From Terramyces sp. JEL0728 (Eukaryota > Chytridiomycota > Chytridiomycetes > Rhizophydiales > Terramycetaceae), in the NCBI GenBank assembly GCA_027603945.1, contig JADIIU010000023.1, forward strand, positions 1 to 64,000: a stretch of 64,000 nucleotides of DNA, read 5' to 3'. This document shows positions 1 to 64,000 of the stretch, in pieces (within the stretch, counting starts at the first letter, position 1; each line of letters opens with the position of its first letter). The notes under the pieces are model-generated. The model saw only the letters and a list, made by a program, of their open reading frames with translations. It was not told the origin of the DNA and made no database searches. Position numbers and translations under genes: made by a program.

Positions 1-311
1 TGGTTCCAGTATGCGATGAAACCGTTTGTGATGCTGGAAAAGGTTGTCGTTGACACTTTAGTTTCTTGTCCATTCCTAAATGTGTCGCGCAATAAACATT
101 TGATTACCGGTAATTATCTGAGATACTTGATATGGATTGGGCATTATGATCCAGAAGGTAGTGAAATCTGCATGAATTTATCATTCAAGTGCCTTACTCT
201 GCGAACGCAGTCATATTGTTCCCCATCGCAATATGACTTGTTCAGCGACGGATATTCCTCAAATCCTGAATACCCGCCACATATCCGGGTGGCTTGGAAA
301 CCATTGACATG
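1..311. other. Left-edge stretch without a supported gene
   Basis: No recognisable coding similarity. A 105-codon open frame on the plus strand (16-333) resembles no family I know, runs into the TATA box and start region of the next gene, and is opposed by a similar-length antisense frame. It is most likely upstream or intergenic DNA of the WrbA-like gene. A distant exon of a gene beyond the left edge cannot be excluded. Confidence 0.4.
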
Positions 312-319
312 TATAAAAA
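312..319 (+). promoter_or_regulatory. TATA box of the WrbA-like gene
   Basis: The sequence TATAAAAA lies 28 bases before the ATG at 348. If TBP-to-start spacing is about 30 bases, the 5' leader would be nearly absent. Inferred from position and sequence only. Confidence 0.5.
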
Positions 320-347
320 CCAGCATGAAATAAATAAATTCCGCAAA

Positions 348-980
348 ATGGGCAAAAAAGTCTTGGTTTTAGTAAGACAAAGCTAACAAGATCTACTCTG
401 CTTACGGTCACGTCAAACAGCTCGCCGAAGAAGAACTCAAGGGATTAAAGAAAGCTGGAATTGAAGCTGAAATTAAACTAGTTCCGGAAACACTCTCTGA
501 AGAGGTACAGCAGAAGATGCATATTGCCAAGTTTGATTATCCAGTCGCTACTCCTGCAGATCTGGAAAAATACGATGGGTTCTTGTTTGGATTTGCTACT
601 CGGTTCGGTTCTGGTATTTTTTATTTGATGTAGCTCCTGCACAGTTCAAGGCTTTCTTGGATGCAACTGGGCAGCTCTGGTTTGGGGGCAAATTGAAAGG
701 AAAAGCAGCCGGTATTTTCCAATCCTGCGCTGGTCTTGGTGGTGGTCAAGAGACACCTGCTCTTACCTTCTTGCCAAACCTTGCGCATCATGGCATTGCC
801 TTTGTTCCACTCGGAAGCCACCCTCACTTGTCCAATCTCACCGAAGTTCATGGTGGGTCTTACTGGGGAGCTGGGTGTGTAGCTGCATCAGATGGATCGC
901 GTCAACCATCCACTTTGGAAAAGGAATTGGCTGAATACCAAGGCGAACAATTTGGCAAATTCATCAGTCGTCTACAATAA
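348..980 (+). CDS. WrbA/Ycp4-family NAD(P)H:quinone oxidoreductase (flavodoxin-like)
   Basis: FMN-binding flavodoxin-fold protein of about 200 residues, expected to reduce quinones by two electrons in oxidative-stress defence. Exons are 348-371, 391-613 and 634-980, with introns of 19 and 20 nt. Splicing joins MGKKVLVL to IYSAYGHVKQLAE, which is the WrbA phosphate-loop start, and rebuilds TRFGSAPAQFKAFLDATG, the FMN-contacting TRFG segment. The later GGGQE..TFLPNLAHHG region also fits WrbA. The first exon is only 24 nt. Family assignment is firm; the physiological substrate is inferred from the family. Confidence 0.9.
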
Positions 981-1194
981 ACAAAGTCGAACAGTTATTT
1001 TTAGGTATTTAAGATAACATTGCCTAGTTCCAACATTCATGAGTTTAGCATTTCTGGTTCCTTCCCAAAATTTTCACCAGATAACCCTAAGTAATCTATC
1101 TAAAAAGTAGCTTGTTCATTTCTCCATTAAAAAGGTTAGCTGTTTACTTTACCCAAACCCATACCAAAATATTAATCTGAATTCCTTTATTTAA

Positions 1195-1563
1195 TCAACA
1201 GGATGAATGGCAGTCATAGATACTGATGCTATTGACTTGATCATTTATTCCATCTAATTGGAAATTACTTGGAGGAGGGTTGACGTTTGCAATCCAGCAT
1301 CTGCTATTTCCATTGCAGTTATCGCCAGTATGGTAACAAAGCTTTATGGCATAACCAGGAAGATCCCAAAGAGAAGAAGAGGCTATATTGTGGAAATCAT
1401 CGTTAACATTACGGCAAATTGTTCTCCAAGGTTGGGGCATCACCTCAAAGATATACATAGATTGGCGGCCTTGGAAATCTTTGTGTTCAAAGAGACTGAC
1501 AGATCCAGCAGCTGCAAGGGCAGAAGGGGTGAGCACAGTAACGAAAGCAAGCAAAGACAACAT
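1195..1563 (-). CDS. Small secreted beta/gamma-crystallin-like protein
   Basis: A 122-residue single-exon protein. Residues 1-18 are a typical signal peptide (MLSLLAFVTVLTPSALAAA). The mature part contains SVSLFEHKDFQGRQSMY, like the first strands of a beta/gamma-crystallin or peptidase-inhibitor-I36 fold, and several Cys residues that could pair outside the cell. Function unknown; secretion is a strong inference. It lies on the same strand as the PAN-domain gene at 2107-4266, and both look extracellular. An AT-rich TATTTAAAAG sequence lies about 30 bases upstream of the ATG. Confidence 0.7.
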   Translation of the reverse strand: MLSLLAFVTVLTPSALAAAGSVSLFEHKDFQGRQSMYIFEVMPQPWRTICRNVNDDFHNIASSSLWDLPGYAIKLCYHTGDNCNGNSRCWIANVNPPPSNFQLDGINDQVNSISIYDCHSSC

Positions 1564-2106
1564 TAAATGAATTCATCTACAATTTCTTGCCTTTTAAATA
1601 CAAAAACATAATAAAATCGGAATTAATTTATGCTATTCTTTCTTTGATTCAGCTTTTTTAGAATTGCGGTAAGCGGTCTAGTCGCCGCATGGGCAAATTA
1701 ATTGTCTTTGATCCAAGGAGTTTTAATGAGTTCTTTGCTCTCCTATTTCGCTCTCTTTCACCGTCCCAATTAGTCCACCGCCATTCCGTAATTCCGCACT
1801 CCTCAAAAATGAATAATCTGATATTATTTGAAACTATTTCTGTTGGTTTGGAATTGTTGGAATCCCTTACTAGATAGCAAACACAATTTCCAAATGGATT
1901 GATGAAGGCTTCGCAGACTAAGCTACAATTTACATTTCCAAATGGACATTGATATCTCCTAATGATCCATTCTTAGGTATGTAGGTTCATTGAGTAGATG
2001 ACCAATGTTTGTATGACTATAAAACTCATTTCTCTTCAAACATTACATTCTCTATTGTAATATCAAACTTGTAACTTATTTTGAAATGAAATGGCGAAAA
2101 GAAATC
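1564..2106. other. Intergenic spacer
   Basis: About 540 bases between two minus-strand genes. It should hold the promoter of the crystallin-like gene and the 3' end of the PAN-domain gene. No convincing ORF, RNA or repeat was seen. Confidence 0.5.
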
Positions 2107-4266
2107 TTATTGAGGAATACTCCAACATCCAGATTGGACATATTCAAAGTTGAACATCTGTGGGCAAGGAGTTTGACCATCAGCGGTGAAAGACTCTAGG
2201 GAAATTTCTATGAGTTAAAACACACAAGTACCTGAACTGTTGCTGTTGTAATCATAAAACACGCATTTGGAAGTTTCGGTTGAAAAGATTGAGCAAATAT
2301 ATGGAGAGAATTGATTAGTTGGATCAATAGAGATACAATCTATAGTTAACGAATTTACATTACCAATTTTAAAGTATTGATTCTTCTTTGCAGAAACACA
2401 ATTGTCCATTACTATAGTTCCTTCTTCGTCAACCGCAAGACAGTTGAATTCCAATTGAATTCTGAAATCAGTCGTGTCCTTATTTGCAATCACTTGGAAT
2501 AGAATCTTTTCTTTTTGGTCCTGGGAAAGCTCAATGGGTTCTGGAATATAAGTCATATTTTGCATGCGGGGAGCAGGTCCATTGAATGAATCCAACACCT
2601 TCGCCATGTATTTGGAATTTGAATCAGAGTCAATGTCGTTATGAATGGTAAAACAAGAGCGTACCGGGAGTTTGGCAATTGGTAAATCAACAGGTGGTGC
2701 TACAGGTGGGAATACAATGTTTGGGGTCGAGTCTGGAAAAGTTTGATTTCGCGCCATTGAGATACCATCCTTTCGAGTGTAGCGAGTCCATGTTGGTTTG
2801 AAAGCACAGTCATCCAAGAATAGAGTCTTCCAACCGTCTTCAGTAGTAAAATTACCCCTATGTCCGGCAAACGACAAACAATTGTGTGGATAACCAACAT
2901 TTGAGTAAGAAACCACAGTTGAATTAATCATCTGTTTTTCAGAAGTAACCCAAGACTGAGAAGGCTTTCGCTCACAGAATTTCCATTGAATCTGTTGACC
3001 ATCTGTATCCAAACAAGCAACATGACTTTTACTAGAGATTGCAACTATGGACTGTTCAAGAGAGAATGTGTCAATAGATTCGAGCATGCCATTACAAATT
3101 TCCAAGGAACCATCCACAGCATTTGCTGCCCCAATGCAATAACCAGAGTTTTCAGATTGTAAATAGTAACTAGAGAAAGGTTTTCCCACCAGATAAGATT
3201 GACCAGTTGGGAATGGAATGCTTGCGCTAGTAGTGGATGTGATGGTAGGAGCGGAGGTAACTGTAGTTGTGCTGACTCCAGGGTTGTCCAAAACCCCACA
3301 TCCCCATGATTGAGTCACATCATTGTATAAGTAAGCATCCTTTATCGTAACAGATCCCTTTTTCAAGAAACAATTCTGTCCATTGAATGTATAGTGGGTA
3401 CAAGTTGCTGTATTTTTGCATTCATTAGCACAGTCATCAGGTGTATTAATAGTTGCAGCTTTGATATCATTGACAGACCAATCACAAGCAAATCTCCAAG
3501 CATATCCCTGACCAAGATTCCATATTAGAGATGGCTTGATGATGCCGCAGCCAGTTGAGTTGTTTGCGTCAATCAATGGAATTGCATCAGTTTTGGAGAC
3601 TGTTCCATTTTTCAATAAACAATAAGTCACTTTGTAAGCAAAATGAGAACAGCTCGGAGTTGTACTACATTGATTCGCGCAGTTAGTCAGATCATTTGTA
3701 TTAACTATGCTGAAATCATCCTTGAAGAAATCGCATCCAAATGACCAAAAGTAAGCAGCTGTTTCAGTCCATGAGATATTCGATGGAGTCGGAGATGGTA
3801 CTACTGAAAAAGTAGTAGTCGTGGGTGTAACTGTAGTGGCTACATAATAAATGTAATTGAAATAGTTTTTCTTGTTATCATCATAGAATCCACACATCAA
3901 GTTTGTACCAGCAAGTTTGGTTTGAACATCATGATAAGTTAAACTTCCATCTTTAGCCCCTTTGACATAGCAATTGTTATTAGCCCAAGTAAACCAAGTG
4001 TTGAATCCTTGAGATGAGAATGCAGCTGTAGCACATCCACCACCGTCAGACATTGGGATCGATTGAAGATCGTGTCCTTCCCAATCACATTCCATACTCC
4101 AATAAAAATATTTACTGTATTGAACAGCAGTTTTTTTAGGATCGCAAGGACCAAGTGATAAATTGTCTTCGCTTGTTAAAGATGGCTGGCAGACGGTAAT
4201 TGTTTCTTGATGAAATTCTTGGCCAGCATAGACGAATGATAATACGAATAGATATCGAGCCAACAT
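2107..4266 (-). CDS. Secreted protein with three PAN/apple-like domains and a beta-trefoil-like region
   Basis: Predicted 711 residues in two exons (4266-2232 and 2207-2107) split by a 24-nt intron. Without splicing the frame stops eight bases into the intron region; with it the protein ends in 32 more residues including two Cys. A signal peptide (MLARYLFVLSFVYAGQ) is followed by three cysteine-spaced repeats, each with a CDW/CDF start, a central CxxYxxxxxNCxLKxG-type segment and a final GCGV/GCGI, at about residues 50-125, 170-245 and 250-325. These resemble PAN/apple domains (protein or glycan binding). A Ser/Thr-rich linker and a QxW-containing, ricin-B-like segment (about 355-500) follow. 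Probably extracellular adhesion or glycan binding; the ligand is unknown. Confidence 0.7.
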
Positions 4267-4515
4267 TGTTAATCTCAGCTTTGGATCTTCTTTATAAAAA
4301 AACTCTTTGATAGGAACGGTAGCTTCCGTATTCGGCCACCAAAAAAAGAATGAAACAGTGGTGACTGGGGATTATTGCTTTCAGCCTAATTAAAAAAGCA
4401 AAGCAAAGGGTTGTGCTCCCGGATTGAGAAGAAATGTAGCCACTTCGCCGCTTGAAGTTTTGCCACTAGTCCAAGGGAATTCCTATAAAAAAAGGGATGA
4501 AAAGAGCAAAGATAT

Positions 4516-9974: not shown

Positions 9975-11152
9975 TTATTGAGGTGCCACGACGTCGGCAT
10001 ATGAAAAGGTGGAATCTCTTTCCGGCTTACGATTAATCTGATTATAATCATACGCTGTCTCTTCATTAAGCGGATACTGAGGCTGTTGTGCGACAATTAC
10101 AGGCTGGTACCTTGGCTCGTGATAGCCTGCGTATACAGCTGGCCGATAAGGATTGCTATCCTGGCCATTGTAGATGATTGACGAGCGGTTTGACTCTGGA
10201 GCGTAGACGACCGAACCCCTGTTTGGATAATTTTCTGAATATACTGCAGGAGACTGAGAAAATCTGTGGTCTTGCGGCACTTCTGAAAAACCGTATTGAC
10301 TCGCTGGGCTCTGCAAATGAGATGGGGACAAGTTGCTGTCTTTGCCCTGAATAGTACTGCCATCTTCGCTTGACCGAGTGATCAAATCACAATTTTCATC
10401 CACAAGTGTTATTGAATTCAAAAAGATGATGAACTGGGTGTAGACAAATGCGACGGTCGTTAGCGAGAATGATGCTTTGGAAACGACATTGTAGATGGAA
10501 TTGCATGTAACTGCTGCCATAACGACACAAGAGACAAACAATCTAGATTCTTCACGAAGCAGTATATTGCTAATAGCCTTGTTTTCCGGCGACAAGAAAG
10601 CATAATCCTGTATTTTGATAATCATAATTGCAGAAGGCACCATATCCATAATCATCCAGTAAACGTACAATAATACTAATGACCAGTTGAAACTGACTTG
10701 CGGAATCAATGATTGTGTGCAATCGCCAGTGAACGAATACGCAGTCGCAATGTACAGCCAGTAAAGCACCAGCGAACCTAAAGCCGCAAACAGCGATATC
10801 CTTGCTGGACTATCACTTCCCCAAATTTGAAATCCTCTGTACACCAAGTACCCATATTTACAAGCGTCTGTATTAGTTAAAAAGTGCCTTTGAAAGAATC
10901 GATAAAGTCTCCAGTGAAAGCAATATACTTTTGTGAACACCCTGATCCTGGAAGCACACTGCCTTGCGCTAGTGCTTGTGTGATATAAGTGAATGTGAAA
11001 GCAAGAGCATCGAGGTAAATCATCCATCGAACAAAGTACTTGGGATGGAAGCCCACCTTGTAATGGTTCATAAAGAACATTACTAGGATGGCTGCTATAG
11101 TGACTTCTCCGGAAAAGTTGTTTAGGCCGTCTACAAATGTGAATGCTGCCAT
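9975..11152 (-). CDS. Multipass (about seven TM) membrane protein, paralogue A, family unknown
   Basis: Predicted 385 residues from exons 11152-10888 and 10867-9975. The 20-nt intron appears to be GC-AG; no GT is available nearby, and removing it aligns IDSFK-DACKYGYLVYRGF with IDTVK-DASKYGYIVFRGF of the neighbour. It shares HYKVGFHPKYFVRWMIYLD with that neighbour. Six to seven hydrophobic segments precede a cytosolic-looking tail rich in Tyr, Pro, Asn and Gln. The ATG at 11152 was chosen by alignment; an in-frame ATG at 11167 would add five residues. It resembles a small receptor or channel but shows no motif I can name. Confidence 0.7.
10868..10887 (-). other. 20-nt GC-AG intron in membrane paralogue A
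   Basis: Read on the minus strand the intron is GCACTTTTTAACTAATACAG, with a TACTAAC-like branch element close to the 3' AG. Frame and paralogue alignment both need exactly this removal. Confidence 0.7.
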
Positions 11153-11338
11153 AATTTTCCAAAACAATTTTCAAAGTTTCTGTTTGAAATCAGTGCCACA
11201 CGATTGCCAAACGAGATCTTTAAGCTCTGCAGGATTCCAATCATTATGCATCTGGGCAGTCTTGGCACTCGGCAACGAATGGCATAAAATTTTGTTCAAG
11301 AGTACAAATGTGGGTACATATTATATTAAGAGTAGAAT

Positions 11339-12357
11339 TTACTTTGCTTGATCAGCTATTACCAAATGAGCGTAGCTCTGTGGGTAGCTGTTTGATTGGA
11401 GATGCCCAGAAGACCTATTGTCTACATGCAGATAACGGTCGTATCCATGCTGCTGAGAAAAAGCATCCTGCTCTACATAATCAGTGTCGTACATATTATA
11501 TCGGTTGTCGTAGTAGCTTGATTGCAGAGGAGATCTTTTCGGATCGCTCACCATTGGAATCGATTCTTCCGCTTGGCTCTTTATCAAATCACAATTTTCA
11601 TCCACGATGGTAAGTGAGTTGACTAGTAGAATATACTGAGTGAATACAAACGCTATTGGCGCCAAATCAAACGTAGAGTGGGAAATGACATTGTAGATTG
11701 AGTTGCACGTAACACCTGCCATGATTACGCAGGACAAGAACAGCCGCATTTCTTCTCTGTACAAAATCCCTTTAACTTTTTGATCCTCTGGCGTTGCAAA
11801 TACGTAATCCTGAAATCTAATTACCAGGATGGCGGATGGAACCATATCCATTATTGTCTACATTAAAAATCAGCTACCCAGTATACATAGAGCAGCACTA
11901 GAGACCAGTTGAATGTATTTTGAGGGATGAATGGAAGTGAACAGTCGCCTCTAAAGGAGAATGAAGTCAGAATGTACATCCAGTATAGTATAGCGGAACC
12001 AGCGAACGCCATCAATGATATTTTGGCAGGGCTCTCCGTCCCCCATATTTGAAATCCTCTGAATACAATGTACCCGTATTTTGAAGCATCTTTTACTGTA
12101 TCAATTGCATTACTAACAATCCCAATGGTGTTGGCTGTACACCCGGTGAATTGCTGATTAGGCAGTGAATATTGGTAAGCTTGGGCGGTAAAAGTAAGCA
12201 GGAATCCAAGTGAATCCAAGTAAATCATCCATCTGACGAAATACTTTGGGTGGAAGCCGACTTTGTAGTGGTTCATGGAGACCATCAAGATCAGCCCTGC
12301 AAACGATACCAATCCAGAGTAATTGTTGATGTTTTGGACAAAAGAAGCTGTAACCAT
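11339..12357 (-). CDS. Multipass (about seven TM) membrane protein, paralogue B, family unknown
   Basis: Predicted 332 residues from exons 12357-11878 and 11857-11339. The 20-nt intron GTAGCTGATTTTTAATGTAG is removed between VYW and TIMDMVPSA. It is clearly a duplicate of the gene at 9975-11152: NNYSG/NNFSG, FHPKYFVRWMIYLD, FRGFQIWG, NTFNWSLVLLYVYW and TCNSIYNV are shared or nearly so. Hydrophobic segments cover most of residues 15-265; the tail is polar and Tyr-rich. The two copies are on the same strand about 190 bases apart. Their introns are at different positions, so the duplication is not very recent or introns have moved since. Function unknown. Confidence 0.72.
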
Positions 12358-13625: not shown

Positions 13626-14169
13626 ATGGTCTGGGAAGTACAAATCAATTAATCCAAAGGAACGAATGTCAAGAACAAAAAACAGATTATATTACTTTAA
13701 TACTGAGACTCAAGAGTCAGTTTGGGATAAACCTGAAGGCGCCGAAATCAAACCGCATGAAGCTGGAGATTCGCAAACCATCCGCGCATCTCACTTGTTA
13801 GTAAAGCACAAAGATTCTCGTAACCCATCAAGCTGGAAAGAGGTACTTTTTCGTTAATCTAGGAAAAAATAACCAGGACAAAGGAAGACGCAATGGAAAA
13901 GATCATTGGTATATCGTACTAATAGAAGGTTTTAGAAAGATGATTGAGGACAAGGAAGTTGATTTGGCAACTTTGGCGCAGACTGAAAGTGACTGTTCCT
14001 CTGCAAAGCGAGGAGGAGATTTGAGCTTTTTTGGACGAGGACAAATGCAAGCTGCATTTGAACAGGCTGCGTAATTTCTGTTTAATTTAGATTCGCACTG
14101 AGTGTTGGTGAACTTTCACAGCCTGTTTCTTCTGATTCTGGAATCCATTTAATTCTCAGAACTGCATAA
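13626..14169 (+). CDS. PIN1: PIN1/Ess1 phospho-Ser/Thr-Pro prolyl isomerase (WW + parvulin)
   Basis: Parvulin-type isomerase acting on phosphorylated Ser/Thr-Pro, for example in the RNA polymerase II tail. Predicted 154 residues in five exons: 13626-13637, 13660-13842, 13863-13908, 13926-14070 and 14091-14169. The introns are 22, 20, 17 and 20 nt. The WW domain begins at once (MVWEERMSRTKNRLYYFN...W..P), so the N terminus is a few residues shorter than usual. The catalytic segment ESDCSSAKRGGDLSFFGRGQ holds the active-site Cys, and the end SGIHLILRTA is canonical. Every junction restores the family alignment, making this one of the safest gene models here. Confidence 0.95.
13909..13925 (+). 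other. 17-nt intron in PIN1
   Basis: The intron is GTATATCGTACTAATAG. The branch-like TACTAA runs directly into the terminal AG. It carries in-frame stops if retained, and its removal gives EKIIEGFRK, which fits parvulin alignments. Confidence 0.85.
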
Positions 14170-18390: not shown

Positions 18391-19125
18391 ATGATCTTGC
18401 AACTCGCAGCCCTTGCTCTTTCTGTCACTGCTGTTCCGCAAGCACAATTGCAAGTTGGCCAATGGGCACCAGCTGGCCCTAACGATGTTCGTTCCCCATG
18501 TCCAATCTTCAATACTATGGCAAACCACGGCTACCTTCCTCGAGATGGAGGTGTAATGACTCGCCAGCAAATCGTAACTACATTCAAAGAGCAAATGTCA
18601 ATTGATGAAACTTTGACCAACCAATTAATGGATGCGACTTATCTTTTGGGGCTAGGAAACGCACACGACCAAACCCTTACTCTGGCTTCCCTCAACACTC
18701 ACAATGCAATCGAACACGATGCATCCTTGTTTAGAAACGACGCTTTCTTTGGGGATAACCACACTCGCAACCTCACATTACTAAGCCAATTGATTAGCTA
18801 CTCCTCCGACGGTGAAACTATTTCCATCAATGATTTGGCACGCTATAGAAAAGATAGATTTGCAGATTCCAAAGCCAGAGATCCAAATTTTACATTTGGT
18901 CCAAAGCAAGAATTCTTGGCTTTTGGCGAAGCTGCATTGTTGGCAGAAACTATTTCTCCAGCTAATCCAAAAAACATACCAATTGAAGTCTTGAAGGCAT
19001 TTGTTGGAGATGAAAGATTGCCAGTTGCTGAAGGATGGGTAAAGAGAACGGACACTGTTAATGACTTTAACGTCGGTGTTTATGCTGCCGAACTGAAAAT
19101 CAAGGCTGGTATCTTCAATACATAA
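18391..19125 (+). CDS. Short-type heme-thiolate peroxidase (unspecific peroxygenase/chloroperoxidase family)
   Basis: A 244-residue single-exon secreted protein. A signal peptide (about residues 1-17) precedes the heme-thiolate motif SPCPIFNTMANHGYLPRDG, whose Cys37 should ligate heme iron. The EHD triad sits at about residues 108-110 (IEHDASLFRND), and a candidate acid-base Glu lies further on (FLAFGEAALLAE). PCP plus EHD and the small size match the short peroxygenase/chloroperoxidase group, which inserts oxygen from hydrogen peroxide into organic substrates or halogenates them. Substrate unknown. It is followed closely by a SnoaL-like gene and a hydrolase gene on the same strand; any metabolic link is speculation. 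Confidence 0.9.
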   Translation: MILQLAALALSVTAVPQAQLQVGQWAPAGPNDVRSPCPIFNTMANHGYLPRDGGVMTRQQIVTTFKEQMSIDETLTNQLMDATYLLGLGNAHDQTLTLASLNTHNAIEHDASLFRNDAFFGDNHTRNLTLLSQLISYSSDGETISINDLARYRKDRFADSKARDPNFTFGPKQEFLAFGEAALLAETISPANPKNIPIEVLKAFVGDERLPVAEGWVKRTDTVNDFNVGVYAAELKIKAGIFNT

Positions 19126-21121: not shown

Positions 21122-21165
21122 TGTAATAAATCTGATTAAAATTTTAGTTTATTAATATATGATGC

Positions 21166-23833
<2,668 letters not shown>

Positions 23834-33735: not shown

Positions 33736-34891
33736 ATGGTCTTGGAAGCTACAGTCCTAGTGTACAATAACAATTAAATCATAGAATTGACAATTCCGAA
33801 TGGATGAGAAATGGAGATTACACACCATCAAGATTGGAAGCTCAGAACGACGCAGTTACATTTTTATTCAATGCTAAAACCCAATCCAACTTGGAAAATA
33901 CAGTTGGATTAATTAGCATGGCAGGAAAGAGGTACTGTTATTTAATCCAGTCCAAAAGTTCTAGTTACCCTCACATCTGATATTGGAAAAATCCTTACTT
34001 CGCTACATCACGTAAAGATCGAAGGGAACTGTAAATTGGATACCAGTATTCAGATTGCTCAAGTATTTATTATTAATGTAGCTTGTATTGAAGCACAGAC
34101 AAAACAAGAATCAACGCCAAAGGATTATAGTGTTTGCAGCCAGTCCAGTTGAACAAGATGAAAAGACACTTGTTAAATTAGGAAAGAAACTAAAAAAGAA
34201 TAATGTTGCTGTGGATGTAGTTAATTTTGGACAAGAAAAGGAAAACACGGAAAAATTGGCGGCATTCATTGAAGCAGTTAATTCTAATGACAACAGTCAT
34301 TTGGTTTCTATACCACCGGGACCGCATTTATTAAGCGATGTATTACTGACTTCGCCAATTATTCAAGGAGAAGATGGTCCACCACCTGGATTTGGAGGAG
34401 GTAACTTTGAATTTGGTGTGGATCCATCTCTAGATCCAGAATTAGCAATGGTAAGGTTTGCTGTTCAAACAGAAGATTGATGCTGAACAAATTATAAATT
34501 GGACTTTTTAACTTTAGGCACTAAGAATGTCCTTGGAAGAAGAGCAAGCCAGACAAGCAAAAACACAAGGAAATACAGAAACTTCAGCTTCAACAGGAGT
34601 ACCTCAGCAATCGCCGGAAGACGAAGAATTGGCTGCAGCATTAGCTCTTTCAATGGGAGTAACTGACCAGCCAGGAGATGTAGAAATGAATGAAGATGAC
34701 GAAATAGCCAGAGCCATTGCATTATCCATGGAAAACGTAATAATCAACTAAACTAGCAACCAATTGATCCAAACTTTTTGAATAATATGGTGGGAAACCT
34801 TCCTGGTGTCAATCCTAACGACCCAAGAGTAAAAAACATTGGAAAGAAGGAAGATGAGAAAAAGAAGGCCAAAGAAGATGATAAAAAGTAA
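33736..34891 (+). CDS. RPN10: 26S proteasome regulatory subunit Rpn10 (VWA + UIMs)
   Basis: Ubiquitin receptor of the proteasome lid/base junction. Predicted 335 residues in six exons: 33736-33761, 33785-33931, 33951-34062, 34082-34450, 34518-34736 and 34757-34891. The introns are 23, 19, 19, 67 and 20 nt. The VWA domain ([50 protein letters not shown]) is followed by three UIM-like helices: [32 protein letters not shown] and [12 protein letters not shown]. The C terminus [20 protein letters not shown] matches metazoan PSMD4. The 67-nt intron splits the first UIM; if it is kept, the protein stops before all UIMs. Confidence 0.95.
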
Positions 34892-38423: not shown

Positions 38424-39402
38424 ATGGATCCAGCTGATTTAGAAGGAAGATTATTATTTGCGATTCCAAAAAAAGGAAGACTCCACGAACAATGCCTGCA
38501 GTTACTTGCCGGCGCAGATATTCAATTCACAAGAAGAAACCGACTCGACATTGCTCTGTCCACCAATTTGCCAATTGCACTAGTATTTTTAAATGCTTCT
38601 GATATTGCAAAGTTTGTTGGTGAAGGGAACGTGGATATTGGGATAACTGGGCAAGACATGTGTAAGGAAAACGCTGTGGTTGTTGAAGAATTAGTTCCAC
38701 TTGGGTTTGGAAAGTGCCAATTACAGGTTCAAGTCCCTATTTCTGCTGGATACAAGTCGATCGATGAATTGATTGGAAAAAGAATTGTCACTTCATTTAC
38801 CAATATTACAAAGAGGTATTTGCAGCCTAACCAAGCTATTTCGATTCTAGAGAGCAAGGAAAGACCCACGACGAAGGGATTGCAGCGCTTTCTGAATTGA
38901 AATTGGATGCCAAGCCCAATACCAAGGTCACATATGTTGGCGGTTCAGTGGAAGCTGCTTGCTCCCTTGGATTAGCAGATGCAATTGGTAATTTTAATTA
39001 ATTCTAGTGGATTTGGTTGAATCTGGAGAAACAATGAGAGCAGCGAAATTGACTCCTATCGCTACTTTGCTGACTACCCAAGCGGTCCTGATCTGCAATC
39101 CATCAAAGCATCAGTCAAACGCTTTGATTGAAAAAATCAAGACAAGAATTGTTGGTGTTCTAACTGCACAGAAATATGTGTTGACTACTTACAATATATT
39201 GAGAAAGAACTTGCCGCGAGCTGCTAAAATCACTCCAGGGAAGAAAGCTCCAACGTTGTCGCCGTTGGAAGATGAAAACTGGGTTGCAGTTTCGTCCATG
39301 GTTTTGAAAAAAGAAGTTGTGCAAATAATGGATGATTTAACCGCTATTGGAGCAGAAGACATCATGGTTATGGAAATTCACAATTGCAGAATTGGACACT
39401 GA
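38424..39402 (+). CDS. HIS1: ATP phosphoribosyltransferase (first step of histidine synthesis)
   Basis: Catalyses ATP + PRPP to phosphoribosyl-ATP, the committed, feedback-inhibited step of histidine biosynthesis. Predicted 312 residues from exons 38424-38815, 38836-38987 and 39008-39402, introns 20 nt each. Signatures: LLFAIPKKGRLHEQCLQLL, ITGQDMCKEN, RIVTSFTNITK-SYF, VTYVGGSVEAACSLGLADAI-VDLVESGETMRAA, and a C-terminal ACT-like regulatory part of the long-form enzyme. Both junctions fall inside conserved blocks that only splicing restores. A window gene for histidine synthesis implies the fungus is not an obligate amino-acid scavenger. Confidence 0.96.
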
Positions 39403-49211: not shown

Positions 49212-52200
49212 TTAAACTGGATTCTGAGTTCTCTGATATCTGATTCTTTCAAAGAACTGCTTCCCACCAAAGTGGAGGAATATTCTTCTGAAGGTAGCGT
49301 AGAGATATAGGAACCCTCCAAAGCATCCAGGAATAGCGAGGAATAGCGGATCCAAGTTTCTAGAAGTGATAAAGATTGCTAATTTAGTAACGATTACCAT
49401 TGGTAATTGGAGTGTACACCACCAGTAGAGCAAAGATACACCCCGATGCCAAAACTATCCACATTTGCTGGTTACTATTATTAAAATTCACCCACCTAAA
49501 CATCCTAGTAGAAATTCCAAAAGTATATCTCTTTTTACAAGCAAAATAGTTGCACACTTGAATAATAAATATCGACAGATAGTACCCACTCTGCACCTGT
49601 CTAATTGCTTCGAATTGATCATATCCAGCCAAGACTCCGCCATTTTCAAGTTCAAGATCCGGGCTGGTAGGTTTCCAATAGATATTCCCAATAATCTGGC
49701 TTTTACGGGCATCTTCTGCTGATACGCCAAACTGAATCCAAAAGATTGCAAAGTATGTGCATATTGCTCCTGCAAATTCGATTAATCCTGCTTCAAGATA
49801 TGCCCAGATTAATACCTCTGCATCCATCAACCTTTCGCCTGTCGGGACGGAAGTCAATGCTTGCATTTCATGTAGCTGGGCTTTCCAGTACCGTTTATCA
49901 ACAACTTGCTTGGCTTCTTGTAGATAATTCAAGTACCTATTCTGTAATTTGCTGTTTAGTTTCTTGAAATCCTTTTGTAGAGCATCCTTTCCCGTCATAT
50001 TCAGCAATTCTGTAGATTCGTTTTCGGCTTCATTCAAATTGTTAATGCTGTTCAATAAATCAACTGTATCTGCATTGAGGCTTGATTTTCTCCTGAGTAG
50101 ATTCGCGTGTTTCTCCATAATCTTTTCGTTGGTAATTATCCTTCTTGGGGGAATCGTCATTAGGATCTTGTCATCCTCAGCTGGCTCCCAAGCAAATGAC
50201 AGTGTCATCAGCAACTCAAACCCAAGATCAACCGCCAATATCTGGGTCGGAGTGATCGGTAACGGTATTGGTACGATCACGTACAATAAATATGGTAATA
50301 TTTCACACATAATATGGCTCAGTGAATACTTGATTGCTTTTTTTAAATTAGTAAAGATTAAGCGGCCTTATTAATAATACTGTACCTTCTTGGATGCCTT
50401 TAACTGTGCTTGTAAAATTATCGTCCAGCAAAATCATTCTTGCGCTTTCTTTACTAATATCACTTCCTGTTTTGTTCATTGATATACCAAGGTCTGCTTG
50501 CTTTAATGCTGGACTATCGTTGACCCCGTCACCAGTCACTGCGACAATATGTCCAAATGCCTGTGCATATCTAACAATCTCTAATTTGTGAGAAGGCAGT
50601 GTCCTCGCAAAAATAATCTCGTCGTAGCAGAATGTATGGGCCCAGTCTTTATCTGTCATTTCTTCCACTACAGCCCCGCTAATGACAATTCCCGAAGATC
50701 CTTCTGGGTATGGAATAGGTAAGGATTCTGGCTCATAAACTTTTAGCACACGGCTTTCCTTTACCAGATTAACTTGCCTTGATATTGTCTAGATGAGGGA
50801 TAAACTACCTCAGCAGTTACTGGATTATCACCGGTTATCATCATCACTTTTATACCGGCACCTCGAATTGTTGAAATGGCATCTGCCACTCCTTCTTTAG
50901 GAGGATCCTCCAGTCCAATCAGACCCAAGAAGGTGTAATCGCACTACATCAAAACGCAGATACCTTTGGATAATTTTCTTTGGTATGATCAAAGGTGAAA
51001 TTGTCTGGATACTTGTCGCCTCTCATTTGCAGTATCCCGCAAGCTAGCACCCGAAGTCCTTTTTGGGCCATATCATTCATTGCATTTTTATATTTCAGCT
51101 GATGTTCTGCAGTGATGGGTATGATTGAGCCATTTATCCAAATTGTTGAGCACAAATTCCACACCTTTTCAGGAGCTCCTTTAATATGCAAAGTCAGGCC
51201 ACCTTGCGAATGAGATTTCCGATGAATTGTGGTGTGATACTTTGTATTGGACGAAAAAGCAAGCTCAAAGACTTTTGGATACATTGAATCAATCTGATTA
51301 AAGTTCTTTAGTTTGTCCGCTGCAAATTTAAGCAACCCTTTCTCTGTGGAATCCCCAGTGTAGATCTTTTCTTGAGAGCTTGGAAGCACTTCGCATTTTG
51401 CTCTATTTGTAAAGTAAGATGAACCTAGAGCAAGTTACACAAACATGCATCAACTGAGCTGCACCACTTAATTCTAACTTTAGTGGCAGCTGGACTTTCG
51501 GGTTGGTAATTTTCGAAGGGAGGAGATACGTTGAACCATTGATCCACACCTCAGTTACCTCCATTTCATTTTTAGTCAGAGTACCCGTTTTATCTGTTGC
51601 AAGCATTGTAATTGCACCAAGGGTTTCGATTCCATGGAGATCCTTTACTAATACATTATTTTTGGTCATCCTGTGGCCAGACAAAGCAAGTATCATTGTA
51701 ACCGTTAATGGCAAACCTTGCGGCACCCACGCAATAAGAATACCTATACTAAAAGTAACCGCATAAACGAAATTTCGCCCTCTTGCCAATCCCCACAAGA
51801 AAAATATTATTGCTGTTACCAAGGCTAATCCTGCAATGGTTTTGATAAACCTTCTGATTTCTTTCGAGAGGAAGGATACTTTAGCCTTTGCATCTTTTGA
51901 TAATCTCTTGATCTTTCCAACGATTGAAGCTTCGCCTGTGTGGACTACTATTGCATATCCTTCGCCTATTCTATTAGTAATGATGTACCAGAAGATACAA
52001 CGTCAGTGCTGAATACAACTTGCGGAGAATCGAATGGATTCGAATCTTCTGCGCTTCCTTCCAGCACTGGGAAACGGCTGAAAGGCTCACTTTCACCTGT
52101 CAGTCCAGACCCATCAATCCTCAGCTCGTTGGAATGATAAAGGATGCAATCCGCAGGGACTTTATCGCCAGATTTCAAATACACCAAATCACCCGGAACA

Positions 52201-53136
52201 ATATCGCAAGCAGCAATTTCCTCTTTTCTTCCATTTCTGATCACGATTGCATTGGAGGCAATTAACCCCTTTATTAGCCACAAATACCTTGAATGAGCTC
52301 AAAATTGATGAAATTTTTTGTAATTCATAAAACTCGATTCCTGCATTGATTACACCTACACAGAGCATAGTCGAACCAATCCAAATCTAAAATTAAAGCT
52401 GCAGTACACTTTCGAAATTTTGTTCTGGCCGAAGAGCGTACAAGACCAGATACATGATTCCTGATGCATAAAGTAAAACATTAAACAGATTAGTCAAACA
52501 TTCAATAAATATAACATGCAATTTCGAGTTTTCAGTCGCTCTAGATTGATTTGGCCCGTAAATCTTTAGTCTTTCAGCTGCTTGCGTGGATGTTAATCCA
52601 GTCGACTGTAATAGAGCTTTAACTTTGAAATCAATGCGCAGCTTTTCAGCAAGCTTTTCAATCGACAAAGTGTGTTCTTGCATATGAGTTAACCCAGCAC
52701 CCATGAATTTAACCACTGGGTCTTTCGAGGATTGCGGATCCACTTCCATCTCAATTGCTTCGTCGCCATTAGCTAGCTTTTGAATATTTGGCGAGGATTT
52801 GGATACTCCTTTCAATGCTCCTCTAATTTTGCCGAACCTTGACGATTCCTTTTTCTTTTCATCTTTGACAGCTTCCTTCATACTCTTAATCGATACTTCC
52901 TCTTTAGATTTAACTGAAATATTGACAATTTCTTCTGCGAGGTTCCTATTCTTTTGTTTCAACTCATTCAATTCCTTTTCCTTTTCGGCATCTACTTCCT
53001 TTTTCTTGAAAGTAGGAAATAGTGTGGGTTTTGCCCGTTTTGTTTCAGTTGGCGACTGTTCTTCTTGTTCATCGTCTTCTTTTAGTGGAGTAGTGTCTTC
53101 GTTTGTCGTGTCCAATGGAGTATTAGCATCGTCCAT
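49212..53136 (-). CDS. P-type cation ATPase of the Na,K-ATPase-like group
   Basis: Predicted 1253 residues in nine exons: 53136-52408, 52386-52288, 52268-51989, 51965-51425, 51402-50964, 50943-50809, 50788-50386, 50366-49398 and 49378-49212. The eight introns are 19-23 nt. All P-type marks are present: DGSGLTGESE, phosphorylated Asp at about residue 494 in TDKTGTLTKNE, KGAPEKVW, MMITGDNPVTAE and TGDGVNDSPALKQADLGISM. The hinge GSDISKESARMILLDDNFTS and M5-M6 (CEILPYLLY, LAVDLGFELL) are closest to animal Na,K-ATPase alpha. In M4 the usual PEGL is PQGLP, and a charged loop of about 90 residues lies between M6 and M7. The transported ion is uncertain; a fungal ACU-type pump is the alternative. 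Confidence 0.9.
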
Positions 53137-53223
53137 CGTGATTGAAACGCGTTGAAATTATACTACAGTATGAACAAATTTTTTATTAAACATAAAACAT
53201 AACGTGATAAAACTATTCGAAAT

Positions 53224-53643: not shown

Positions 53644-53703
53644 GTCATTGTGGACGATATTGCCATGCAAATAAATGCAGCGAGATATTACTTCAACCTA
53701 TCA

Positions 53704-60203: not shown

Positions 60204-60224
60204 AATTACAAATTTATTTACAAT

Positions 60225-61070
60225 CTAGCAAATCATGCGCATGTAGAGATCTCTCAATCTATGCCCAAGTTCCTCTCCATTTATTTTAGAGATTTTCGTG
60301 CATACACACGGCATTTCATCCTTGTATCCGAAAACTCCTCTAATCGTAGTAACAGTCAATCTAATCTGATATTTATCTCTGGTGAATGTATGTTCAAGGT
60401 GGTCGAATGCAGACACTGAGCCGTGTACGAATTCACTCTTGTAAATTTCTTGGTTATCGTAATGCACACATTCAGTACAAGAGTGCGGGACTCTTAATCC
60501 GCCTACTGGCGAATCCAAAGTTGGCATTATTGGTGGTAGCTGTCCTTGTTGGATTCGTTTCTGCACATCCGCGATATAGCACGGCAGTCTCTCCCTGTGA
60601 TCAAAGTATTCTACTAAAACTTTTCCCCCATTGCGCACATTCAATGTAATTCCGCCCAAGAAATCATATTGCTCCAAAAATGTTTTATGGATCATGTACG
60701 GCATTTCAGTGCCCTGTTTTGTCCATTCGCCAAACACCAACTGATCATATGAATGTAAAGAGGTTTCAAGAGAAACGTCAACCTCAATTGTGTCTGGTGT
60801 TCTGGAGATGTATTCCTTCCAATTTTGACGGTCAGCTACAATTGATCTCCAGCGCTGGTTTACATGACGGAGTGTGAAGCAGGTCTTGAATCCGCTTGAC
60901 ATGGCAATCATTGCAAGGATTTCAGTTGGTAAAATGTCAAAATAGCTTTCTGGCTTTTCAGGTTGGACAATTGTTGTTTGCGAATCTTGTCTTGTATACA
61001 TTGGCTTTAAAAAGTCCAAATCGTCGAGGTCCAACGATCCTAGTATGTTCTGTACTTGCGTTATGTTCAT
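60225..61070 (-). CDS. F-box-like protein
   Basis: A 281-residue single-exon protein. An F-box-like helix set occurs at about residues 43-80 (YFDILPTEILAMIAMSSGF, TLRHVNQRWRSIVADRQNW). The remaining 200 residues carry a CxxC...C-rich segment (HSCTECVHYD, PCVCTKI) and no known repeats. F-box proteins link substrates to SCF ubiquitin ligases. The frame continues upstream to 61202, but a TATAAAA box at 61104-61110 lies only 33 bases before ATG 61070, so that ATG is preferred. Substrate unknown. Confidence 0.68.
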   Translation of the reverse strand: MNITQVQNILGSLDLDDLDFLKPMYTRQDSQTTIVQPEKPESYFDILPTEILAMIAMSSGFKTCFTLRHVNQRWRSIVADRQNWKEYISRTPDTIEVDVSLETSLHSYDQLVFGEWTKQGTEMPYMIHKTFLEQYDFLGGITLNVRNGGKVLVEYFDHRERLPCYIADVQKRIQQGQLPPIMPTLDSPVGGLRVPHSCTECVHYDNQEIYKSEFVHGSVSAFDHLEHTFTRDKYQIRLTVTTIRGVFGYKDEMPCVCTKISKINGEELGHRLRDLYMRMIC

Positions 61071-62110
61071 TTTGGAAATAGTTACTTGGACAATGGCAGG
61101 GGGTTTTATAGGACCATGGCGGTGTGGGGCGAACAATCGCAGTTTCAGGTTAGTTTCACGAACAATAGATGGCATTAGTTTCAGATCTTGCTGCCATGGC
61201 ATTTTCTAGCAAGTATGCCTGACCTGGTCTCTAATTTGATAATTCCCAAATGGCGTCAGTTTATTATATAGAAATTCCAACTGCAAATCCATACTGGTAA
61301 ATGAATTTAATGAATTTACCTCGCAGCAGACACTACCTTGTGTTCGTTTGATCAAATATCTAGAGGCATTACTGCCAGCTTGATCCCGATTCACAGAGAA
61401 AGGGAATTTGAAATCCACTGTTCCTGATTAAAATCACTGATCTAATTCCAACAAATGGATGTCTGTGTATATATTGTTTGTTGAAACGAAAAAAGTTGGT
61501 CATGCTTGTTGGTGAAAACATCAATGGTGCATTCATAGAAATGAATTGGCATGGTCGAATGTTGAGCTAGAGGACAGATCAGCGACAGTGAAAGCAGAAA
61601 TTTCTGTGGAAAGTGGAATTTTATAGTTATTCCATGCAATAATTATGAGTGTATATTAAACGAAAAGCGCGATATTAGGGTGATGAACAGCAAGGAAACC
61701 GCCGTAAATCTTTCTCCAGTCTTATTAATGCTTGTATTCAATTGATCTATCAAACGTTTGCAATTTCACCTGTGTGTAACTTTGTCCCTGCCCTATTTTG
61801 TGAGAGGGAGCGTCGCCATAAAGAGGAGGGAGCCGAACAGATCAAACTCTCGAATGCAGTTTACAATCTCCAATTCAACGCAAACGTGAAGCTAAGCATC
61901 TACTAGCAGCAAGTCCGCCAGAACTCCGATTGAATTGATTGGCTGTTGATATGAAATTTTCTCTAACCAATCCAGATCAGTTGAGTTTGTCTGTGCTCCT
62001 GAAACACCACCCATAAGCCTTGAACTTTCGATAGCAACAGGGGTCCACCAATATCTCACGTTATTAACTTGCGTTTAATATAAATTGATGCGAAATATAC
62101 GTGAATTTCA
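61071..62110. other. Long region without a supported gene
   Basis: About 1 kb between the F-box gene and the SWIRM gene. Minus-strand open frames at 61206-61418 and 61442-61639 begin with GTG or TTG and have Cys/Ser-containing but unrecognised products. A TATA box for the F-box gene sits at 61104-61110. No RNA gene was found. A poorly conserved small gene may lie here. Confidence 0.4.
61104..61110 (-). promoter_or_regulatory. TATA box of the F-box gene
   Basis: TATAAAA on the minus strand, 33 bases upstream of ATG 61070. It decides between this start and a longer in-frame reading. Confidence 0.5.
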
Positions 62111-62908
62111 ATGTCTGCTATATTCGACTATCCTAGCCCCATCCCTTCCCCATTCCTAACTAAATCCTCATTGATCTGGGAGGCTCCTGTAAATGAAATT
62201 CACCAAAAATCAAAAAGAAAGAATTCAATACCTCATCGTTCACTTAGTCCGCCATTGGACCACGTCGATAGATCGTTTCAACGCATTGTAAATCTGGATG
62301 TTTATGCTGTGTTCAAAGAAAACCCAGCTGTATTGCTGGGAAAGAAGCTTTCTGATTCAGATTCAGAAACAAACCCAAAATCACCACGAGATAGCATCCC
62401 AGACCCACCAAAACCAAAATCAACCAGTGCTTGCAAAGTCCTTCCTTCATTTATCGTCAAGAATGAACCAATGGAACTGGATTTGTGTGAATACAAAGAA
62501 ACCAAAGGCGCACCTAACGTGTCATGGAAAGGTGAATGATGAATTAACGCTAGCTGGAGCTCAGCCGCTTCCAATTACTAGAGACATGCCTGAATATGAC
62601 GATTTAACTGCTGAAGAGGTTCGTACTTGTGCCACATTACGGATCTCTCCCAAGCAATATATCGAAATCAAGAGAACTATGCTCACTGCAGTTCGTTCTT
62701 ATGGCCCGTTCAAAAAACGCGAGGCTCAAACATGGTTTAGAATAGATGTAAACAAAGTACATTCAATTTAACGTAGATTTGTATAATTTATGACTGGTTC
62801 AAAGCACTTCAATGGATTCCAAGCACTGATGATTGGGTTGCACCAGCCGATTCTGGTAGACGAGGATCTTTTTCCGAACATAGACAAAAGAAGCTCAAGA
62901 GAAAATAA
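62111..62908 (+). CDS. SWIRM-domain protein (Fun19-like)
   Basis: Predicted 251 residues from exons 62111-62531, 62554-62756 and 62777-62908, with introns of 22 and 20 nt. The N-terminal 150 residues are disordered and Pro/Ser/Lys-rich. The C terminus is a SWIRM domain: DLTAEEVRTCATLRISPKQY, MLTAVRSYGPFKKREAQTWF and ...NKICIIYDWFKALQWIP, the last part needing the second intron removed. A stand-alone C-terminal SWIRM after a disordered region matches yeast Fun19 rather than Ada2, Swi3 or LSD1. SWIRM domains bind nucleosomal DNA or chromatin complexes. Partner complex not evident. Confidence 0.85.
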
Positions 62909-62998
62909 GGGGTTTCAAGCAAGATTCCTGTAAATACCGTGTAAATACCTTGAAATATATTTCCTTATTATTTTTCAAACCGCAATTGTCGATACAAT

Positions 62999-63660
62999 TC
63001 AAATAAATTTGTCCGTACTTGGTACTGCTCGCTTTGGTTTTCTAGTTAGGGGTTGGTTACTTGGGTTTAGCATTTCGCGGCATTTACGGTTTTCCTTTGA
63101 GAATCCAGGTGATTTATCTTGCCACCATTTAGATTTTGGCGGTCGTACAGATTCCCAATGTGCTTTCCAGCGCTGTAGTAACAAGTATTTCTATGTCAAG
63201 TTCTAGTACTTCCTAGGTTATTTTCATGTACTTGTGCACGCAAGACCTCTAATTGCTGGGAAATTGGTATTCCTGGCATTAATCCTTCAACGGAATCCGG
63301 AATTACAATCTCCTTTTGGACTTTCTGCATTTGCTTGTAATCGTGTTTAAATCTAGTTTTAATTGTGGTGTTGAGATTGTCAGCTGGTTTCCTGTGCGAT
63401 AGTATTGCTTCTCTCATTTGTAAATCTGTCAAGTGATACTCTAAATCACGTAGATTATTTGATTTTAACGAGGTTTCTAGATGCGCCTGGTATTCCAGTT
63501 CTCTGAACAGTGTCTTGCAGTTCAGATAATCTGCAGTCCCATTTGGGTTATCGTTTGATACAAGTGAAATCTGCGACTCTTCATGCGGTACTGGAGGAGG
63601 TGCTGGCACGTCTTTCCTGCCAAAATTTACACCTCTCACTATCAGGTCAATTTCTTTCAT
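62999..63660 (-). CDS. Unrecognised charged protein with a possible 3-nt microexon
   Basis: Predicted 207 residues: exon 63660-63232, a GAA microexon at 63212-63210, and exon 63190-62999, flanked by two 19-nt introns. The product begins MKEIDLIVRGVNFGRKD, is rich in Leu, Glu, Lys and Gln in the middle (helical), and ends basic with many Trp/Pro (RWKAHWESVRPPKSKWW). I recognise no family. The exons share one frame only if 41 nt in total (or 38 plus the GAA) are skipped. The gene lies 34 bases downstream of the PEX11-like gene and converges with the SWIRM gene. Confidence 0.55.
63210..63212 (-). other. Candidate 3-nt microexon (GAA)
   Basis: On the minus strand the order is exon, 19-nt GTACAT...CCTAG, GAA, 19-nt GTACTA...CATAG, exon. 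Each flank has a donor, an AAC- or GAC-type branch element and an AG, and has the modal intron size of this window. A single 41-nt intron is the alternative. Confidence 0.55.
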
Positions 63661-63694
63661 TGTTTAAACAAAATTATCAAACAAATTGTATTTT

Positions 63695-64000
63695 TCAATT
63701 AGTTGCTTTCCATGCAGAGTAGAATTGCAATACTGCGGCAATGGTTCCAAAGAAACCAACTCCAACATCTGGGAAGGAGGAAGTTTCCAATGACCAGTGG
63801 ATTGTCAATGGGAAATACGCAGTGTTGACCAATGCTGAAATCGCCCAGTCTTTTTCTTCTTGCTTTAATTTCTTCAATTCAGTCTTGACAACCTCTTGGT
63901 CCTTCTTTCCACTCTTCAATGCTTTGATCTTTTGATCACGAACGCTGCGTTCCTCCCATAGCTGGCCAAAGTATAGTACGACATATGCAGCCCAGAATCT
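63695..64000 (-). CDS. PEX11: PEX11-family peroxisomal membrane protein, 3' part only
   Basis: Open at the right window edge; at least 101 codons. The visible C-terminal part reads WAAYVVLYFGQLWEERSVRD, a charged linker, then NTAYFPLTIHWSLE and FPDVGVGFFGTIAAVLQFY. This matches the end of Pex11-type proteins, which shape and divide peroxisomes: a conserved helix, the PLTxHWS motif and a final transmembrane helix with a GxGxxGTIAA motif. The 5' end lies beyond 64000. No intron is needed in the visible part. Confidence 0.85.
   Translation of the reverse strand, partial: RFWAAYVVLYFGQLWEERSVRDQKIKALKSGKKDQEVVKTELKKLKQEEKDWAISALVNTAYFPLTIHWSLETSSFPDVGVGFFGTIAAVLQFYSAWKATN

Follow-up and report, generated by a model that had tools for sequence, protein, structure and literature searches.

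Introns of about 20 nucleotides (nt) are near the shortest reported. The cases available for comparison involve ciliates, a parasitic rhizarian and the relic nucleus of an alga, and are usually ascribed to genome reduction or to an oddity of the lineage. Chlorarachniophyte nucleomorphs carry more than 800 introns of 18–21 nt (cited in PMC10245619), heterotrich ciliates have introns of 15–16 nt (PMC10245619; for Stentor coeruleus, PMC9505925), and Mikrocytos mackini is credited with 224 introns of 16–17 nt (PMC10245619). Values of 20–33 nt for Paramecium and 21–29 nt for Nyctotherus are given in PMC2633312, with 25–45 nt for Paramecium in PMC5014332. In a fungal context, 'ultra-short' is used in PMC11913375 for introns below 60 nt; those of Cryptococcus neoformans average 56 nt according to that source and have a mean of 63 nt according to PMC8476143. 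The subject of this work is a 64,000-nt stretch from the chytrid fungus Terramyces sp. JEL0728 (the window; C23:1–64000), for which a first-pass annotation, made by eye from the letters, had proposed introns of about this size throughout.

That proposal holds: this chytrid has GT-AG introns of ∼20 nt that carry a branch motif of the U2 type. The assembly to which the window belongs comprises 15,016,339 bases in 231 contigs, and the strain is classified by NCBI under Chytridiomycota, Rhizophydiales, Terramycetaceae; the introns thus belong neither to a nucleomorph nor to a ciliate. We are nearly certain that they are genuine introns of the U2 spliceosomal type and that their length has stabilised near 20 nt, most likely across the Terramycetaceae; splicing as such we infer from the sequence signals, their spacing and the restoration of proteins.

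Introns were called in 264 kb (the window together with 200 kb from contig C1) with a gene finder that scores coding 5-mers against background, contains no splice motif and applies a flat prior to intron lengths from 12 to 60 nt. Its coding tables were retrained twice on GT-AG models ahead of the runs with mock dinucleotide pairs, which may favour GT-AG slightly, but no length. A total of 267 GT..AG introns were obtained, of which 129 measured 19, 20 or 21 nt (30, 71 and 28, respectively); 12 mock pairs run through the same code gave at most 9 introns at 20 nt and at most 17 at 19–21 nt. The GT-AG introns outside 16–24 nt numbered 109, below every mock pair (135–235), which gives no hint of a further class of greater length up to 60 nt. 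A replicate was made on 18 further loci (63 kb, 12 contigs; six overlapping or repeated loci were excluded and two retained loci overlap by ∼1.1 kb), using the final coding tables, counted on the window and C1 alone; 9 of the 18 loci had supplied long open reading frames to the first seed. There, 29 of 54 GT-AG introns were 19–21 nt long, versus 0–6 for eight mock pairs, and at least one intron of 18–23 nt was present at 16 of the 18 loci. In both samples GT-AG boundaries were preferred over the alternative pairs, and in the gene-finder and homology sets alike the length distribution is restricted to a narrow class, the mock-pair comparison covering lengths up to 60 nt. The same class appears in raw sequence without gene models, where spans matching GTA..TAA[TC].[TC]AG occur 42 times at 19 nt and 39 times at 20 nt, over a background with a median of 2 across spans of 12–60 nt and a maximum of 7 across 27–60 nt. 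Together, these results confirm that GT-AG introns of ∼20 nt occur throughout the sampled sequence, and exclude chance.

Within the window, 104 of the 129 introns from one trained run and 130 of the 138 from the other measured 16–24 nt. The 100 introns that both runs called identically divide by length into 3 (18 nt), 16 (19 nt), 45 (20 nt), 26 (21 nt), 4 (22 nt) and 6 (23 nt), in line with the first-pass statement that 20 nt is the most frequent size. Its count of ∼85 introns, ∼82 of them 17–25 nt long, was right about the short size but is probably too low, the window holding ∼100–130. Similarly, the ends TAG, AAG or CAG that it described are found in 97 of the 100 shared introns, whereas the GTA start that it attributed to nearly all is found in 82. 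The CTAAY/TTAAY-like element that it placed near the 3′ end is also there: YTRAY lies within 10 bases before the AG in 58 of the 100, compared with 6.6% before any AG (n=7,370), and the motif recovered by fitting is YTAAY.

The final run over the 264 kb gave 166 gene models with 208.6 kb of coding sequence (CDS) and 545 introns of 17–24 nt, that is, 2.6 per kb CDS, with tiny introns in 139 of the 166 models. Extrapolation from this sample to the assembly yields an estimate of ∼31,000 introns genome-wide. Reversed sequence returned 4 gene models and 25 introns of 17–25 nt, versus 166 and 547 for the real sequence. The 22 calls above 24 nt had a motif score of 7.46, against 8.29 for the short introns and 2.49 for random GT-AG pairs; a few of these calls, themselves selected by motif score, may be genuine longer introns. 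Calls of 18 nt are doubtful and possibly false, because in-frame stops were seen in 4% of them against 33% expected under random phase. Introns above 60 nt called in early runs mostly resemble fused genes and were not interpreted, and a run that combined a motif model with flat length and penalised introns too mildly was discarded for over-calling (1,552 introns, the highest count still being at 20 nt).

Boundaries were also defined by homology, using protein-to-genome alignments in which insertions of at least 10 nt carry a flat cost and splice motifs are ignored. The queries were 31 proteins (11 HIS1, 11 ATPase and 9 MAP4K homologues) chosen from 360 returned, nearly all from chytrids, plus one metagenome protein and one from an aphelid; deposited Terramyces proteins were excluded. 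These alignments contained 233 inserts, 197 of them of 18–23 nt before any motif was required. When an intron was defined as an insert of at most 26 nt that could be slid by at most 6 bases to GT..AG, 24 introns were obtained in the three genes (2 in HIS1, 8 in the ATPase and 14 in MAP4K), all of 19–23 nt. At least 5 homologues support 22 of them, and the two supported by 1–2 homologues both lie in poorly conserved stretches (Table 1). Exact removal of the introns restores conserved coding sequence in HIS1, the ATPase and MAP4K, and also in PIN1 and RPN10, whose junctions were compared with chains of solved structures; the restoration of frames against conserved families, as first claimed by eye, is thus reproduced by alignments blind to splice motifs. 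With its two 20-nt introns out, the HIS1 model is 100% identical over 100% to the deposited Terramyces sp. JEL0728 protein P0001, and identity to the Terramyces proteins HDV01_003425 and HDV01_003412 is 98% for the ATPase model and 95% for the MAP4K-like model, respectively (the de novo gene model W14 fuses the MAP4K-like gene with upstream genes). Many of these tiny introns are already in the deposited Terramyces annotation, which departs from homology at 2 of the 8 ATPase and 3 of the 14 MAP4K introns. At 22117–22218, P0241 skips 92 nt, covering two introns and the exon between them.

Exons end preferentially in A, A and G at positions −3 to −1. The donor is GTAATT-like, with A at +3 in 76–84% of introns according to length class and A commonest at +4; in 19–21-nt introns T is commonest at +5 and +6 and G is not preferred at +5, while G is the commonest base at +5 (37%) among the 38 introns measuring 22 nt. 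The branch motif was fitted as (C/T)TA-A-(C/T). The position of its adenosine is most often 14 when the intron has 19 nt, 14 or 15 when it has 20, 15 when it has 21 and 15–16 when it has 22. Of 510 assigned introns overall, 383 have the adenosine at position 14 or 15, and in 394 it is followed by a tail of 5 or 6 nt, which leaves no room for a polypyrimidine tract. The intron interior is 72% A+T. Phases 0, 1 and 2 hold 229, 177 and 139 introns of the final run, respectively, and all 536 introns of 18–23 nt are distinct when compared for exact identity, with no copies of one sequence at many sites.

Boothiomyces belongs to the same family as Terramyces, and its deposited proteins carry what look like traces of the same introns. 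Relative to the spliced Terramyces protein, the MAP4K proteins of Boothiomyces sp. JEL0866, Boothiomyces sp. JEL0838 and B. macroporosus show nine insertions, six of exactly 7 residues. Each of the six is no more than 1.5 residues away from a Terramyces intron site, and together they occupy 4 of the 14 sites; positions this close to a site cover 5.3% of the protein, and no random placement out of 200,000 had more than four of the six at sites. The inserts at phase-0 sites have V first and Q last (GTN...CAG), those at phase-1 sites start after S (A, then GT) and have A last (..G, then C), and LM, which fits CTAATG, is present in four of the six. Given their location and these GT..AG-compatible ends, we read them, at the protein level, as stop-free 21-nt GT..AG introns retained by the annotation. 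The deposited Terramyces MAP4K protein has a like fault, retaining the single stop-free member of the seven homology-defined 21-nt introns (21485–21505). A 7-residue insertion at a MAP4K intron site was found in none of 11 proteins from other families (one has two elsewhere), and none was found at an intron site in 14 HIS1 proteins, the deposited Terramyces one excluded. One of 12 out-of-family proteins, from Polyrhizophydium, has such an insertion at an ATPase site; it fits the GT..AG grammar poorly and was not counted as an intron.

From the insertions at Terramyces sites, the trait is probably common to the family. Tiny introns are then probably not private to the Terramyces genome, Boothiomyces proteins pointing to introns at matching sites, and probably date back at least to the Terramyces/Boothiomyces split; at four MAP4K sites, intron length seems to differ by one base between the two. 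In Globomyces sp. JEL0801, the HIS1 protein (P0003) is ∼5 residues short at the Terramyces intron 38816–38835 (insert of 35 versus 20 nt). This gap resembles an annotation stretching an intron that was too short for it, and might be a lead to tiny introns outside the Terramycetaceae.

The first-pass annotation had also suggested a survey of spliceosome genes, which succeeded in part: U2 is present and U2AF65 has a best match, whereas U1 and a credible U6 were not found in searches made without a eukaryotic positive control. The U2 small nuclear RNA (snRNA) is canonical (140.2 bits) and has the GTAGTA branch-recognition box. Genes for Slu7 and Prp18 scored above cut-off, each matched in two pieces, and the best match to the large subunit U2AF65, read across introns, reached 251.7 bits, under the cut-off of 310.3; weaker U2AF large-subunit matches were also found in 2 of 14 control genomes. 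In the assembly, neither BLAST with the Rfam U6 consensus nor a U6 3′ core pattern gave anything credible. The U6 core ACAGAGAAGATTAGCA with up to two mismatches gave 18 matches versus 16 in the reversed control, nothing credible being among those read; the sole match with one mismatch sits in apparent coding sequence. No family was matched when the window and 150 kb of C1 were scanned with Rfam, and the control genomes gave no snRNA match. Because no eukaryotic positive control accompanied these searches, the missing U1, U4 and U6 say little, and most likely the set is ordinary and merely unassembled.

In the mechanism that we favour, U1 or U6 would read GTA(A) at the 5′ end, and a U2 small nuclear ribonucleoprotein with the canonical GUAGUA box would read YTAAY 13–14 nt downstream. 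The usual two-step reaction would follow, with a lariat loop of ∼14–15 nt and with the AG 5–6 nt past the branch used as the 3′ splice site. On these 13 nt the U1 duplex (to +6) and the U2 branch duplex would abut or overlap, so that binding is probably sequential or pairing shortened, which the relaxed +5 position would fit. The introns would be ancestral chytrid introns shortened in place and not newly inserted, as is consistent with the phase bias and the 536 distinct sequences.

Several observations weigh against this interpretation. The strict branch pattern is missing from 42 of the 100 shared window introns, and the fit of the branch motif started from a TnA(Y) seed and considered only adenosines 5–10 nt from the end, of which 26 of the 536 introns had none. 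Among the 233 alignment inserts, 44 lie outside the 24 introns, 32 overlying or touching one and 12 lying elsewhere, each in a single homologue. The introns show no enrichment of in-frame stops and hence nothing like the surveillance signature reported for Paramecium, the gene finder being biased against stop-free introns of 3n length; six of the seven homology-defined 21-nt introns contain an in-frame stop, in a set with the same bias. The sole Boothiomyces ATPase protein has no 7-residue insertion at the 8 sites, the segment of the first two being absent from it. In the 15-Mb assembly, and without a eukaryotic positive control, U1 was not found with the Rfam model and one pattern, nor U4 with the Rfam model. 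Two 27-bit U6 matches fall within one 3.1-kb stretch, two copies of which are 98.9% identical, and are probably not U6; the stretch itself (L030 and L031, on C199 and C111) occurs in at least two copies at that identity. Slu7 and Prp18 are dispensable when the distance from branch to AG is short. It was therefore supposed that they might be lost here, an idea dropped when both were found to be kept in spite of the 5–6-nt distance.

Could the introns be something else? Indels, frameshifts or decayed genes, whether from annotation or from sequencing, might mimic short introns after frames have been restored by eye, and many family matches do contain stop codons when a single frame is followed, just as the deposited annotation and homology disagree at the ATPase and MAP4K introns mentioned above. 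Such errors, however, would not share a 19–21-nt length, GT-AG ends and a YTAAY at a fixed place, nor recur as 7-residue insertions at matching sites in annotated Boothiomyces proteins, and we give this explanation practically no credence. The same slight weight attaches to programmed frameshifting or to excision at the DNA level, comparable to that of ciliate internal eliminated sequences, in place of RNA splicing. A length of 20–30 nt and richness in A+T do resemble the ciliate elements, but GT..AG ends combined with a branch motif 5–6 nt from the end are explained by splicing alone, and the genome has a canonical U2 snRNA as well as splicing factors. If the introns are real, they might instead derive from recent insertion of a short mobile, introner-like unit, as their very uniform length could suggest. 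We consider this quite improbable, since the sequences are all distinct, phase 0 exceeds phase 1 and phase 1 exceeds phase 2, and Boothiomyces appears to hold introns at the Terramyces sites. Intron density also resembles that of several fungal clades, in a comparison that is only rough because gene sets differ: the 2.6 per kb of Terramyces is close to Rozella (2.53) and Pucciniomycotina (2.80) and lower than the mean of two chytrids (3.93) or the inferred chytrid ancestor (5.30), using the figures given in PMC8476143.

A spliceosome altered in its components, with U1 recognition of the 5′ splice site reduced or lost and U4/U6 diverged, deserves somewhat more attention but is still improbable. 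No U1, U4 or convincing U6 emerged from 15 Mb with Rfam models, BLAST and core patterns, and the G at +5 is not preferred in 19–21-nt introns; on the other hand, U2 is canonical, the stretches that pair with U6 included, which leads one to expect an ordinary U6; a normal U1 is still compatible with the preferred −1 G and +3/+4 A; and the searches had no eukaryotic positive control, while snRNA genes present in single copy may simply be missing from the assembly. Our preferred interpretation, real U2-type introns handled by ordinary machinery, has a bolder extension that is possible, if on balance unlikely: a spliceosome locked to length across the Terramycetaceae, with ∼30,000 introns per genome at 19–21 nt and the branch at 14–15, which would no longer remove fungal introns of ordinary length and whose 5′ splice-site recognition would be remodelled (relaxed +5, diverged U1/U4/U6). 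If true, such a chytrid would be, among free-living, culturable fungi and opisthokonts at large, the first with a length-locked spliceosome, as far as the literature searched reaches.

Microsporidian introns range from 23 nt upwards. These fungal relatives share short introns with Terramyces, yet have few per genome and are obligate parasites, as summarised in PMC10245619. The nucleomorph introns match in their length window and in being many per genome (PMC10245619), but they belong to a relic endosymbiont nucleus with ∼300 genes, whereas Terramyces has a chytrid nuclear genome of which ∼15 Mb is assembled. According to the account in PMC9505925, Stentor introns have a GTAATT-like donor (the commonest intron being GUAAUUUUUAUAUAG), A+T richness, a 5-nt tail and GUAGUA in U2, all as in Terramyces; they differ in a branch adenosine at 10–11 instead of 14–15 and in being present in 18% of genes, compared with 139 of 166 Terramyces models, and all five major snRNAs were found there, unlike in our searches. 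Mikrocytos shares the narrow length class, but is described as a rhizarian parasite whose spliceosome is reduced and whose introns are few (PMC10245619), whereas the Terramyces estimate, extrapolated from 264 kb, is ∼31,000, with U2AF65, Slu7 and Prp18 kept. Paramecium and Nyctotherus likewise have tiny introns in protein genes, ending in GTA..TAG in Nyctotherus, although by the ranges cited above they are slightly longer than those of Terramyces, and the depletion of stop-free 3n introns reported for them was not seen in Terramyces by our biased test. Cryptococcus resembles Terramyces in having intron-rich fungal genes, with introns ∼3 times longer by the values cited. Among the matches listed in our literature searches, no title or abstract reported ∼20-nt introns as a fungal norm; priority is unproven.

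Members of the Terramycetaceae are free-living. Terramyces is a chytrid whose window holds ordinary biosynthetic and housekeeping genes; it has tiny introns throughout the 264 kb sampled and belongs to the same kingdom as the yeasts of splicing genetics; if it is itself free-living, intron shrinkage is separated from parasitism. The strain, which belongs to a culture collection, could provide a culturable system for asking how U1 and U2 act on a 20-nt substrate, and its relatives Batrachochytrium and Spizellomyces could date the change in intron length. Deposited proteins of Terramyces and Boothiomyces with apparent retained introns and lost exons indicate that annotation programs seem to mishandle tiny introns.

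Table 1. Introns and genes located in the window, with homologue support for each intron as supporting/aligned.
Feature	Position	Strand	Length	Support and remarks
Introns of 17–25 nt identical in two gene-finder runs (100)	1..64000	unspecified (.)	18–23 nt, mode 20 nt	
PIN1 intron 1	13843..13862	+	20 nt	Gap-free at junction vs two PIN1 chains
PIN1 intron 2	13909..13928	+	20 nt	Gap-free at junction vs two PIN1 chains
PIN1 intron 3	14071..14090	+	20 nt	Gap-free at junction vs two PIN1 chains
MAP4K-like kinase gene region	21160..23820	-		14 homology-defined introns
MAP4K intron	23694..23714	-	21 nt	8/9; in-frame stop if retained
MAP4K intron	23654..23674	-	21 nt	9/9; in-frame stop if retained
MAP4K intron	23448..23470	-	23 nt	7/9
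MAP4K intron	23379..23398	-	20 nt	7/9
MAP4K intron	23299..23319	-	21 nt	8/9
MAP4K intron	23227..23246	-	20 nt	9/9
MAP4K intron	22902..22922	-	21 nt	6/9
MAP4K intron	22800..22819	-	20 nt	5/9; two Boothiomyces proteins insert VSSNLMQ / VRSSLMQ
MAP4K intron	22456..22475	-	20 nt	1/9, poorly conserved; Boothiomyces sp. JEL0866 inserts VTIFNVQ
MAP4K intron	22199..22218	-	20 nt	2/9, poorly conserved
MAP4K intron	22117..22137	-	21 nt	9/9
MAP4K intron	21824..21843	-	20 nt	8/9; 7-residue insertions in Boothiomyces JEL0866 and B. macroporosus
MAP4K intron	21485..21505	-	21 nt	6/9; stop-free; read as SISKLKI in deposited Terramyces P0241
MAP4K intron	21384..21403	-	20 nt	7/9; 7-residue insertion in Boothiomyces sp. 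JEL0838
RPN10 intron 1	33762..33784	+	23 nt	Gap-free at junction vs 8amz_W and 12bm_b
RPN10 intron 2	33932..33950	+	19 nt	Gap-free vs 8amz_W; one-residue gap beside junction vs 12bm_b
RPN10 intron 3	34063..34081	+	19 nt	Gap-free at junction vs 8amz_W and 12bm_b
HIS1 (ATP phosphoribosyltransferase) gene	38424..39402	+		Spliced product 312 residues
HIS1 intron GTATTTGCAGCCTAACCAAG	38816..38835	+	20 nt	7/11
HIS1 intron GTAATTTTAATTAATTCTAG	38988..39007	+	20 nt	11/11
P-type cation ATPase (Na/K-ATPase alpha-like) gene	49212..53136	-		8 homology-defined introns
ATPase intron	52387..52407	-	21 nt	10/11
ATPase intron	52269..52287	-	19 nt	9/11
ATPase intron	51966..51988	-	23 nt	11/11
ATPase intron	51403..51424	-	22 nt	8/11; deposited Terramyces P0121 skips 52 nt
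ATPase intron	50944..50963	-	20 nt	11/11
ATPase intron	50789..50808	-	20 nt	11/11
ATPase intron	50367..50385	-	19 nt	10/11; deposited Terramyces P0121 skips 49 nt
ATPase intron	49379..49397	-	19 nt	9/11

Other features of the genome were recorded in passing. Near-identical pairs of kinase matches stand at constant offsets of ∼61.8, 46.2, 29.3 and 29.7 kb on C18, C26, C3 and C42, respectively, and may be read either as large duplications or as haplotypes joined by the assembler. On the minus strand of the window, 9975–12357 holds two adjoining related genes that resemble membrane proteins, each with MNHYKVGFHPKYFVRWMIYLD, apparently a tandem duplication. On the plus strand, 18391–19125 encodes a protein with a PCPIFNTMANHGYLPRDG stretch, a motif by which we presume it to resemble a fungal chloroperoxidase/unspecific peroxygenase.

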